DNA of 55,515 nucleotides. It comes from Ignavibacteria bacterium. Its GTDB lineage: Bacteria; Bacteroidota; Ignavibacteria; Kapaibacteriales; UBA2268. Under the pieces are notes generated by a model, which was given only the letters and a program-made list of their open reading frames with translations, was not told the origin of the DNA and searched no databases. The position numbers and the translations under genes are program-made. The DNA is taken from assembly GCA_026417135.1 (NCBI GenBank), contig JAOADV010000006.1:58025-113539 (forward strand), in the 5' to 3' direction. Shown piece by piece: positions 47,332 to 50,062 of this stretch. The number at the start of each line of letters is the position of its first letter. Within the stretch, counting starts at the first letter, position 1.

Positions 47332-48915
47332 ATGAAAAAAGAAGTAAAAACCAATTTGGTGGAAAAGAAAAGAAAAAGAATTGTAAAGTTCGAGACAATA
47401 TACCAAGCAAAGCCAGTTGAAAAAGTTCCAATCCAAGACCCAACTATTTTAGCAATTGCCCAATTAGCCAAGAAGTATAATTTCGAACTTTACCTCGTCG
47501 GTGGCACTGTTCGGGATTTCTTCTTGAAAAGGGAAAGATACGATGTCGATTTCACTGTCGTCGGCGATTCCATTGAATTTTCCAAGATAGTCTCCGAGCA
47601 CTTCAAAACGAAAATTATTACCTTCCCACGCTTTTTTACTTCAATGGTCCCGATAGGCAATAGAAATTTCGAATTTGTAGGGACCCGAAAAGAAGTTTAT
47701 ATTCCAAGTAGCCGAAAACCTATTGTTTCAACTGGAACTTTAGAAGACGATTTAAGGCGACGCGACTTTACAATAAATGCAATGGCAGTGTCGCTGAACG
47801 AACCAGATTTTGGAAAACTTATCGACCTTTTCGATGGTTTCAAAGACTTACAAAACAAAATCATACGAACTCCTCTCGACCCAAAAGTAACTTACGAAGA
47901 CGACCCCTTGCGTATGCTAAGGGCTATCAGATTTGCTTCTCAATTGAACTTCACAATAGAACAAGAAAGCTTGGATACAATTTCCGAAATGCGACATAGA
48001 ATTGAAATTGTTTCGCAAGAAAGAATTACCGACGAACTCTTGAAAATTCTTGAATCCCAAAAACCAAGTATTGGATTTAGCCTTTTATACACTACTGGCT
48101 TGCTCGAATTAATCTTTCCTGAACTAAATGCTATGGCAGGCGTCGAAACAAGAGAAGAAAATGGAATTTCCTATGCACATAAAGACGTTTTTACCCACAG
48201 TTTAAAAGTCTTGGACAAAATTGCTGAAATTTCCAATAACCTTTGGCTACGATTTTCAGCCCTTATCCACGATATTGGCAAGCCTAAAACAAAGCGATTT
48301 GTTTCTGGAATTGGTTGGACATTTTATGGGCACGAAGAAATTGGGGCTAAAATGGTCCCAGATATTTTTCGGAAACTAAAATTGCCTTTCGAAAAAATTG
48401 AATATGTCGAGCGTTTAGTCCGTTTGCATCAGCGACCTATGGCACTTGTTGACGAAGGTGTTACCGATTCGGCTATACGACGGCTTGCCGCATACGCAGG
48501 CGATGCACTCGAAGATTTGTTCTTGCTTTGTCGTTCCGACATCACCACCAACAATCCGAACCTATCCAAAAAGTATCTGAACAATTATCAAAAAGTTTGG
48601 AATAAAGTTCTCGAAGTTCAAGAAAAGGACAAACTGCGTCAGTTCCAATCCCCAATTCGGGGCGAAGAAATAATGGAAACTTTCGGTTTGTCCCCTTCGC
48701 CCGAAGTTGGAATTATCAAAACAGCAATCGAAGAAGCTATTTTAGAAGGGATTATTCCAAACGAACCCGAACCAGCACGAAATTTTATGAACGAAAGGAT
48801 TGAACTTTGGAAAAATTTGCTTCAATCTGTAAATATTCGCGATATAAAAAGAGATAAAGATTTAATCAAGAAAATTTTTGTTTACTCAACTTTGAAAGAA
48901 GCACAAGCAAAATAA
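47332..48915 (+). CDS. cca: CCA tRNA nucleotidyltransferase / poly(A) polymerase-family protein with HD domain
   Basis: This 527-residue class II nucleotidyltransferase has an N-terminal extension of about 45 residues. It is followed by LVGGTVRD at 55-62, the catalytic YDVDFTVVGD (Asp71 and Asp73), LRRRDFTINAMAV, the RNA-binding DDPLRMLRAIRFA and ERITDELLKIL. A C-terminal HD domain carries LIHDIGKPKT (His313-Asp314). This CCA-adding/HD layout is typical of Bacteroidota enzymes that repair or complete tRNA 3' CCA ends. The HD part may supply phosphohydrolase activity. The gene is 7 bases after prkA and is followed by a long gene-free stretch, so it ends the transcript. Confidence 0.88.
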   Translation: MKKEVKTNLVEKKRKRIVKFETIYQAKPVEKVPIQDPTILAIAQLAKKYNFELYLVGGTVRDFFLKRERYDVDFTVVGDSIEFSKIVSEHFKTKIITFPRFFTSMVPIGNRNFEFVGTRKEVYIPSSRKPIVSTGTLEDDLRRRDFTINAMAVSLNEPDFGKLIDLFDGFKDLQNKIIRTPLDPKVTYEDDPLRMLRAIRFASQLNFTIEQESLDTISEMRHRIEIVSQERITDELLKILESQKPSIGFSLLYTTGLLELIFPELNAMAGVETREENGISYAHKDVFTHSLKVLDKIAEISNNLWLRFSALIHDIGKPKTKRFVSGIGWTFYGHEEIGAKMVPDIFRKLKLPFEKIEYVERLVRLHQRPMALVDEGVTDSAIRRLAAYAGDALEDLFLLCRSDITTNNPNLSKKYLNNYQKVWNKVLEVQEKDKLRQFQSPIRGEEIMETFGLSPSPEVGIIKTAIEEAILEGIIPNEPEPARNFMNERIELWKNLLQSVNIRDIKRDKDLIKKIFVYSTLKEAQAK

Positions 48916-49254
48916 ACAGAAAATAAGAAAATCTAAGCGATACAAGGATTAAAAAACAAAAATCTTTGGTCCCAGCCATAAAAAAGATGAGTTAATGCCC
49001 TTAATGCTCGGCAAACCTAAATCCTCATTGTTCTAACTTTTTTCATAATCGTATCTCGACGACATATATAAATTCTTTGGCACACAATGATGAGAAATAG
49101 AATCCTCTCTCATTTAATTATTGCCTGTTTCACTATCCACTTAATTTAAATATCAAAAGTAATAACCTAAAAGCAAGGTTATTTAGTCAATAAAGAACTG
49201 CTTCTATTTTTACAATAAATGAAATAGAATCGCACTAGCTGTTGCCCGAAGTAG
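48916..49254. other. Gene-free AT-rich interval after cca
   Basis: No ORF, hairpin with a T-run or promoter-like element stood out in these 340 bases. Stop codons occur often in all frames. The palindrome cluster starts directly downstream. Confidence 0.5.
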
Positions 49255-49312
49255 AAGAAGAATCCCTGCTTCTCCAAATGGTAGGGCGGACATCTCGACT
49301 GCCCAAAAAGTA

Positions 49313-49333
49313 GCACAAGCATCTTGCTTGTGC
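49313..49333 (-). repeat. Palindromic unit GCACAAGC-N5-GCTTGTGC
   Basis: Perfect 8-base arms flank a 5-base loop. Read on the minus strand, the unit has AAGATGC in its centre and is followed by TACTTTT, the shared tail of the family. Confidence 0.7.
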
Positions 49334-49349
49334 GTGAATAATTTCATTC

Positions 49350-49423
49350 AACACCCCTACGCCCCTCTACGAGAGGAGAAAAGAAGAAAAATTCCCCTCT
49401 TATAAAGGGGGTAAAGGGGTGTT
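49350..49423. repeat. Long hairpin with AACACCCCT / AGGGGTGTT ends
   Basis: Perfect 9-base terminal arms at 49350-49358 and 49415-49423 enclose two smaller hairpins, CCTCT/AGAGG and CCCCT/AGGGG. This gives a cruciform-like or cloverleaf-like layout of about 74 bases. Terminal inverted repeats with internal hairpins suggest a small non-autonomous mobile element, but no target-site duplication was obvious. Confidence 0.6.
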
Positions 49424-49434
49424 CAAAAACAATT

Positions 49435-49454
49435 CGAAAGCAGAGATGCTTTCG
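49435..49454 (+). repeat. Palindromic unit CGAAAGCA-gaga-TGCTTTCG
   Basis: Perfect 8-base arms with a 4-base loop, containing AGATGC and followed by ATACCT, a variant of the tail seen in neighbouring units. Confidence 0.7.
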
Positions 49455-49475
49455 ATACCTCCAAAGTACCAAAAA

Positions 49476-49506
49476 CATCCCTGCTTTTGAGACGACGGCA
49501 GGGATG
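49476..49506 (+). repeat. Palindromic unit CATCCCTGC / GCAGGGATG
   Basis: Perfect 9-base arms separated by 13 bases. The right arm runs on into CCTTCGCTACTT, the shared tail. Confidence 0.7.
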
Positions 49507-49524
49507 CCTTCGCTACTTCAATTC

Positions 49525-49545
49525 GCACAGGCTGGAAGCCCGTGC
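49525..49545 (+). repeat. Palindromic unit GCACAGGCT-gga-AGCCCGTGC
   Basis: Nine-base arms with one mismatch and a 3-base loop, followed by TACTTCG, the same tail as the preceding unit. Confidence 0.65.
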
Positions 49546-49709
49546 TACTTCGAAAACAAAGATAATCTAATGTTTTAGCTATTCTTAGTTGTTTCGTTCA
49601 ATTACATCGCTTTACCACAGACTTCGATTTTCATTATTACACATCTTCTCTTTTAAATACTCAAATTATGTTCTATGATATTTTGTTTTTCTATTTCAGT
49701 CAGTTTTTA

Positions 49710-49717
49710 TATTTTTG
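49710..49717 (+). promoter_or_regulatory. Bacteroidota-type -7 element (TATTTTTG) upstream of the HU gene
   Basis: An exact TAnnTTTG match 39 bases before ATG 49757, in an AT-rich stretch after the palindrome cluster. Confidence 0.5.
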
Positions 49718-49756
49718 CCTTTTTAAATTTTTAATTTCACAAAATTTAGGTTGACT

Positions 49757-50062
49757 ATGAGTAATAATATCACTAAAGCTGATATTATCGACGAAATTGC
49801 AAAAGCAACGGGGCTTACGAAAATCGAAACAAAGGCTGTCGTCGATGGAGTTCTTACAACAGTTATAAATTCCATTGCCAATGGGAAAAGAATCGAACTA
49901 CGGGGATTTGGCGTCTTCAAGTCAAAAGAAAGGAAACCTCGGATGGCACGGAACCCCAAAACTGGTGAAGTAGTTCCTCTCGACAAAAGATTCGTCCCAG
50001 TCTTCAAACCTTCACCTGGTTTCTTAAAACGTGTTAACGATAATTTGAACAACAAATCTTAG
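49757..50062 (+). CDS. HU/IHF-family DNA-binding protein
   Basis: This 101-residue histone-like protein has the family features ITKADIIDEIAKATGL at the N-terminus, GKRIELRGFGVF in the saddle region and the DNA-contacting arm KPRMARNPKTGE. It bends or coats DNA in the nucleoid. I preferred ATG 49757 to the in-frame TTG at 49751. A second small gene encoding a ribosome-type basic protein follows after 8 bases. Confidence 0.93.
   Translation: MSNNITKADIIDEIAKATGLTKIETKAVVDGVLTTVINSIANGKRIELRGFGVFKSKERKPRMARNPKTGEVVPLDKRFVPVFKPSPGFLKRVNDNLNNKS

Follow-up and report, generated by a model that had tools for sequence, protein, structure and literature searches.

What kind of element packs eight hairpin structures into some 300 bases between two genes, and how could it have arisen? 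This question is raised by a 55,515-nucleotide stretch from an Ignavibacteria bacterium of the order Kapaibacteriales (contig JAOADV010000006.1, positions 58,025 to 113,539; below, the window), in which seven tagged hairpins and a 74-bp palindrome (C, 49350-49423) lie together at 49251-49548, both strands being read. The source assembly (G000, with the window in its contig C60) comprises 2,238,018 bases in 63 contigs and is 98.15% complete. A first-pass annotation of the sequence had claimed at least five palindromes within 300 bases, and palindromes do lie where it placed them. Its further claim of a mobile or copy-propagated family, rather than one terminator, holds as regards copying, with copies dispersed over the genome, but finds no support as regards current mobility.

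Our analysis indicates that the cluster is probably a composite, resembling bacterial interspersed mosaic elements (BIMEs), of a GTAG-tagged family of repetitive extragenic palindromes (REPs), spread by a REP-associated tyrosine transposase (RAYT, TnpA-REP) now either gone from the genome or hidden in a gap of the assembly. The hairpins themselves, the paired variation of their arms, their dispersal, a mostly fixed unit order, copy ends that are mostly at unit borders and the intergenic placement together lead us to this reading.

A cluster of tagged hairpins

In each unit a stem of 7-8 bp with a short loop comes after a GTAG-type tag, and the orientations across the cluster run + + + (C) - + - -. 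The tag is GTAG in five of the seven units, GTAT in one and GTAC in one. The core and the CTACTT tail that had been noticed in both orientations are parts of this build, read on both strands: AGATGC/GGATGC/GGAAGC is the loop side of the hairpin, and CTACTT is the reverse complement of AAGTAG, which contains the tag.

On the + strand lie U1 (49251-49275; GTAG, imperfect arms; copies in L009, L012, L014, L024, L027 and L028, L numbers denoting loci), U2 (49281-49304; GTAG and a GGGC..GCCC hairpin, degenerate in the window copy) and U3 (49310-49333; GTAG and a perfect CACAAGC/GCTTGTG stem, also recovered by an exact-GTAG hairpin scan). Beyond C follow U5 (49435-49458, - strand; GTAT, CGAAAGC/GCTTTCG), U6 (49466-49489, + strand; GTAC, CAAAA../..TTTTG), U7 (49493-49516, - strand; GTAG, CGAAGGC/GCCGTCG) and U8 (49525-49548, - strand; GTAG, CACGGGC/GCCTGTG). 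A covariance model, R1, trained on 54 units of the source genome, matches all seven at E<=4e-4, with cmsearch scores of 29.1 (U1), 25.8 (U2), 35.2 (U3), 33.0 (U5), 30.8 (U6), 30.5 (U7) and 28.6 bits (U8) and all other matches in the window at or below 11.2 bits; this success is partly one of construction, because all seven belong to the training set.

Random sequence does not reach such a density. The exact scan for GTAG plus hairpin finds 13 units in the 55.5-kb window, four of them inside the cluster, while 30 first-order Markov sequences yielded 1-8 units per window and never more than two within 300 bp. The 305-nt cluster stretch also folds with a z score of -10.2 as RNA and -6.9 as DNA, and none of 100 shuffles was equally stable in either case.

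Arm variation with conserved pairing

We aligned 54 distinct full units drawn from 108 regex candidates and 74 scanner candidates. Of the stem cells, 408 in number, 90.9% are paired versus 70.9% after shuffling (none of 500 shuffles came as high), a percentage that is somewhat favoured by the selection of rows by eye toward paired units, half-units and unrelated-looking candidates being excluded. Double-change cells number 86 versus 30.4 in shuffles, six of the eight stem pairs have changed on both sides, and the covariation score is 0.513 versus 0.202, with slid controls at most 43.3% paired. All selected units share the first two tag bases, G1 and T2, as well as the loop-core T; conservation of at least 90% is seen for A3, for two loop-core C and for the G-C after the loop, and G is the majority base at tag position 4. 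The stem is kept through compensatory changes while the arms vary between units, and the earlier impression of differing arms around a similar core and tail is borne out.

Copies throughout the source genome

A search of the source genome with the cluster (40 of 50 candidates scored; the window's own copy counted) aligned at least 33 pieces at E<=1e-3 and at least 49 rows at E<=10, so that the possibility of a locus without further copies falls away. With 150 of 1235 candidates scored, model R1 matched at least 79 units at E<=0.1. For placement and ends we compared 24 copies, comprising the window and L009-L028; later copies, L156-L161, stand outside the border statistic given below.

Twenty-three of the 24 copies overlap no called open reading frame (ORF) by more than 30 bases, the calls being mechanical and of at least 100 amino acids. 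The neighbouring genes are convergent in eight cases, co-directional in five, the window's own copy among them, and divergent in one; one copy overlaps an ORF, and for nine no ORF was called on one side, the contig or fetched stretch ending there. This placement would also suit hairpins that selection maintains for a role in RNA, be it as terminators of transcription, as mRNA 3' ends or as another RNA element, their copying being incidental, and four terminator-like sites were indeed found versus 0.6 expected. All four, however, are on the - strand, opposite to the flanking genes of the window, and a terminator needs neither eight stacked hairpins nor a multi-unit order. Moreover, G-T pairs are rare in the stems (15 of 408 cells), several cluster copies are truncated, and the available part of a survey of REPs reports the same placement for REPs in general, with convergent and co-directional positions for GTAG REPs (PMC3733652). 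A selected RNA function is thus an unlikely explanation of the cluster.

The common unit order, established by eye, is U1, U2 and U3 forward, C, U5 reverse, U6 forward, and U7 and U8 reverse. Exceptions are the absence of U2 in L012, a U5-like hairpin before C in L014, and internal deletions in L019 and L021. The inverted U6/U7 pair has a similar spacer of ~45 nt in L025 and L161 and one of 2 nt in the composite, which suggests that the short spacer of the composite is a deletion. Several long copies are 84-86% identical to the window cluster, and in six copies (L009, L014, L018, L024, L027, L028) the order wraps round, with U8 or half of it followed by U1 or U3. Both features would accord with a whole ~300-bp composite that moves as one mobile element, either resembling a miniature inverted-repeat transposable element or passing through a circular intermediate. 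Yet most of the 24 copies are sub-sets that differ in their start and end units, single units and pairs also exist outside composites, and by eye neither a target-site duplication nor a common end was seen, which leaves movement of the composite as a unit improbable.

The outer ends of the copies coincide largely with unit borders: 36 of 42 fall at a tag, a spacer, a stem foot or the edge of C, versus 40% expected by length (binomial 9e-10), the end classes being assigned by hand and six ends at contig ends dropped; 30 of 42 would still give 3e-5. Among the remaining ends, five lie in or at a loop, one in an arm and none inside C.

Loop junctions and hybrid units

Some junctions, few in number, lie at hairpin loops, with a tag-side half-unit joined to other DNA. 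In L014 and L017 the half-unit ends in the loop directly after GCATC, in L024 the half-unit junction lies a few bases past GCATC, L013 begins at CATC, and the inner junction of L019, after GCATC or GCATCT, is joined to the inside of C. Hybrid units with the left arm of U6 and the right arm of U3 occur in L013 and L016. The hybrids can be explained by ordinary recombination at shared cores; the loop ends beside unrelated DNA are the odd cases, and they are few. We see only a slim chance that cutting and rejoining take place within the loop, immediately past GCATC, as well as at the hairpin feet. If a RAYT does cleave C|T inside loops, in the manner of its cleavage next to the hairpin, new arm families would come from loop exchange, which could account for the rise of REP diversity.

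The hybrid units, the U2 deletion in L012 and the breaks at loops or shared cores would also be produced by slipped replication and recombination among hairpins, with no transposase involved, but we give this explanation little credence, as it covers rearrangement within clusters and not dispersal to at least 20 separate places in the genome.

Under the preferred explanation of a RAYT-spread GTAG REP composite, units and unit groups would have been copied by a RAYT that recognises tag and hairpin in single-stranded DNA and cuts and rejoins beside the hairpin. Through tandem duplication, the loss of units and shared-core recombination, the eight-part cassette could afterwards have been assembled, rearranged and worn down. 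The enzyme may have been lost from the source genome, may formerly have acted in trans, or may lie in an assembly gap. The copies are thus probably relics of RAYT activity and at most passive hairpins that would serve as transcript ends or mRNA 3' stabilisers.

A second repeat type within the cluster

The 74-base unit in the middle of the cluster, to which the first-pass annotation ascribed 9-base terminal inverted repeats and internal hairpins, has an inverted repeat (49347-49365 / 49408-49426) and inner hairpins (CCCCTCT/AGAGGGG type); it is a second repeat type and not a GTAG unit. C, AACACCCC..GGGGTGTT, has the appearance of two ACACCCC-tagged hairpin halves in inverted arrangement; it has inverted ends, and no target-site duplication was seen by eye. 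Copies occur in the source genome. In relatives the half-units stand alone or in tandem (L062 in G020, L068 in G003, L064 in G009), and L063 in G018 holds a near-perfect palindrome, which argues that C is a repeat type of its own set into the GTAG cluster. The ACACCCC-tagged half-units of L062 and L068 are in tandem, and by eye those of L068 seem to lie in frame within a restriction-enzyme-like gene. The sole Rfam matches at a lax E-value, three weak hits of microRNA families to the palindrome, were rejected as chance (25.4, 24.7 and 21.7 bits versus gathering scores of 94, 87 and 75).

The transposase and the distribution in relatives

The first-pass annotation had proposed a search of the genome for a RAYT-type transposase. 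None that is credible was found there. Hairpins of the class flank a RAYT gene in two related genomes, so that the idea fits the class and is partly supported. In the source genome a profile search with PF01797 gave no match at E<=0.001, NF047646 gave only two hits of 13-14 bits, each with a stop codon, and an alignment of RAYTs from nine relatives (A2) gave no match at E<=1. The two NF047646 hits, considered as a possible RAYT remnant, were treated as noise. PF01797 alone is a weak test, because the RAYTs of congeners barely exceed its cut-off (26.4 bits versus 23 for L056). Of the 126 contig ends of the assembly, eight fall inside a copy or no more than 13 bases from one, so that its 63 contigs may lack a small REP-flanked gene.

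Among the four congeners, NF047646 detects RAYTs in G001 (1.2e-8), G002 (9.2e-10) and G004 (6.5e-10) and has no match in G003; the matches of the first three to A2, at 1e-72 to 1e-75, arise by construction because their proteins are in the alignment. Across 40 genomes, NF047646 matches 29 at E<=0.001 and six above its cut-off. Units matching R1 occur in 15 of the 40, with the largest sets in G037 (115), the source genome (at least 79), G029 (37) and G016 (21); G001 has eight, G002 three, and G003 and G004 none. Eight of the ten genomes with at least five units have a RAYT match. Parts of the composite are present in G001, and the exact U6 24-mer of L011 and L017 is also found in another genus of the family (G017, L117). 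The exact U3 24-mer had no match in the genome-contig and viral-contig collections, from which records of the source genome itself may be left out, and the whole cluster, compared in distant mode with plasmids and phages, had none either.

When R1 was applied to 30 RAYT loci of relatives, units appeared on both sides in two, L060 and L033, one from a genome of the same family and one from a genome of the same order. L060 carries two identical inverted 25-mers (54-78 and 567-591; E 1.9e-4 each) around its RAYT (135-521), and L033 carries units at 1446-1469 and 1968-1991 (E 0.04 and 0.05). Both RAYTs exceed the NCBIfam cut-off of 80 bits, at 92.3 and 91.4. L040 has one unit of 20.8 bits on one side only, L032 has two partial 13.5-bit matches that we took as chance, and the other 26 loci have none at E<=1.

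L060:3-1556 (G037:C58) is a single open frame in which two inverted GTAG hairpins flank the RAYT domain and the C-terminal part of RecG helicase follows downstream; the contig begins just upstream, and the arrangement resembles an in-frame insertion of a RAYT-REP unit into recG. L033:1-1995 (minus strand; G019:C290) is likewise a single open frame, with the RAYT ahead of an Eco57I/PglX-like methylase and GTAG hairpins translated in frame on both sides.

Other GTAG hairpins are found within or next to the RAYT genes of three congeners (L053, L052, L056). The hairpin pattern of G002 has 20 matches in G002, all beside or in RAYT frames, four in G004, and none in the source genome, G001 or G003. 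These RAYTs accompany other tagged families, and no RAYT cognate to the family in the window was found in the genus. L053 (G002:C1:2651888-2655073), from a complete genome, holds two tandem RAYT-like frames and 24 GTAG hairpins of one family in 3.2 kb. By eye, the RAYT-like genes of L056 (G001) and L054 (G006) lie between apparent type I restriction specificity and restriction subunit genes.

Several results weigh against a REP composite spread by a RAYT. No credible RAYT or IS200-type (Y1) transposase emerged from three profile searches of the source genome, which is the genome richest in units within its genus. Among the 40 genomes there is no association between the presence of units and that of a RAYT, a RAYT match being present in 11 of 15 genomes with units versus 18 of 25 without, and 27 of the 30 RAYT loci have no full-length unit match at E<=1. 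The RAYT of the congener G001 carries a different GTAG hairpin (GTAGAGACGC..). At the level of the units, two covariation measures out of five, namely pairs with double changes and pair types, fail to exceed the shuffles; U6 is often tagged GTAC and some copies of U3 and U5 GTAA or GTAT, and GTAC is reported, in the part of the source at hand, to abolish cleavage by one RAYT and to shift the site of another (PMC8266576). Finally, the four congeners offer no clean empty site for the cluster locus, because the HU gene on its downstream side is separate from the upstream poly(A) polymerase gene in G002, G003 and G004 and no HU match is listed for G001.

Relation to known repeats

BIMEs and the related REPIN composites of RAYT systems are reportedly also treated by Bertels and Rainey (2011). 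GTAG REPs, BIMEs and RAYT cleavage beside the hairpin are described in the available parts of PMC3733652, PMC2817692 and PMC8266576, and the kind of element found here is therefore known. Like the GTAG REP superfamily, as far as the accessible text of Di Nocera et al. 2013 (PMC3733652) describes it, the units have a 5' GTAG tag, a short loop, a stem within the range of 6-13 bp with paired variation and several arm families per genome, and they occur in many copies as singles, dimers and clusters; unlike that superfamily, the window cluster arranges seven units in a mostly fixed order about a repeat of a second type. As in the BIME/REPIN composites outlined in the parts of Nunvar 2010 (PMC2817692) at hand, REPs alternate in orientation in mosaic clusters, for example U6/U7 with tags outside, whereas the seven unit types per cluster and the fact that no cognate RAYT was found in the source genome set ours apart. 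The congener RAYTs resemble TnpA-REP subclass 2.4, so far as the available excerpt of PMC6006769 goes, in having NHxH, WQ and YIxNNP-like motifs, with GTAG hairpins located within the open frame in the stretch that separates the two motif regions; their hairpins, with GGGGCRRACC and AGACGC arms, are not of the window's family.

Novel here are the REP family, the lineage that hosts it (within the scope of the searches) and the cassette of eight ordered parts. The phyla listed for GTAG repeats in the accessible portion of PMC3733652 are Proteobacteria, Cyanobacteria, Chloroflexi and the Planctomycetes-Verrucomicrobia-Chlamydiae (PVC) group. Literature searches for Kapabacteria with repetitive extragenic palindromes found nothing, and those on REPs and RAYTs in Bacteroidetes/Chlorobi and Kapaibacter held nothing on GTAG REPs of the lineage among the matches listed. 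As far as these searches show, our results add the Kapaibacteria lineage to the hosts of GTAG REPs and supply a defined model of the family. Abundant REPs alongside no detectable RAYT bear on the time for which REP populations persist when they lack their enzyme, and the composite junctions provide material for studying cluster formation. A specialist would pause only at the order of the composite and at the loop junctions; the rest is ordinary repeat biology.

Setting of the locus

The cluster occupies an 835-base gap between two genes on the + strand, a member of the CCA-adding/poly(A) polymerase family upstream (47332-48915; Pfam PolyA_pol, 5.2e-28) and an HU-type DNA-binding protein downstream (49751-50062; Pfam Bac_DNA_binding, 7.4e-27). 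A tRNA search of the window found none. The poly(A) polymerase is found at one place in each of the four congeners; since it adjoins the HU gene in the window (47332-50062) and is apart from it in G002, G003 and G004, the cluster sits at a synteny break. The best two of 34 named loci for the poly(A) polymerase belong to Candidatus Kapaibacterium sp. Ch6 and MS-B_bin-24, with 74% and 72% identity, and by this gene the source organism stands close to both. In a relative, just past the poly(A) polymerase match of L081 and downstream of that gene, a hairpin repeat of another kind (ACATCGGATGTTT..AAACATCCGATGT) is present two times.
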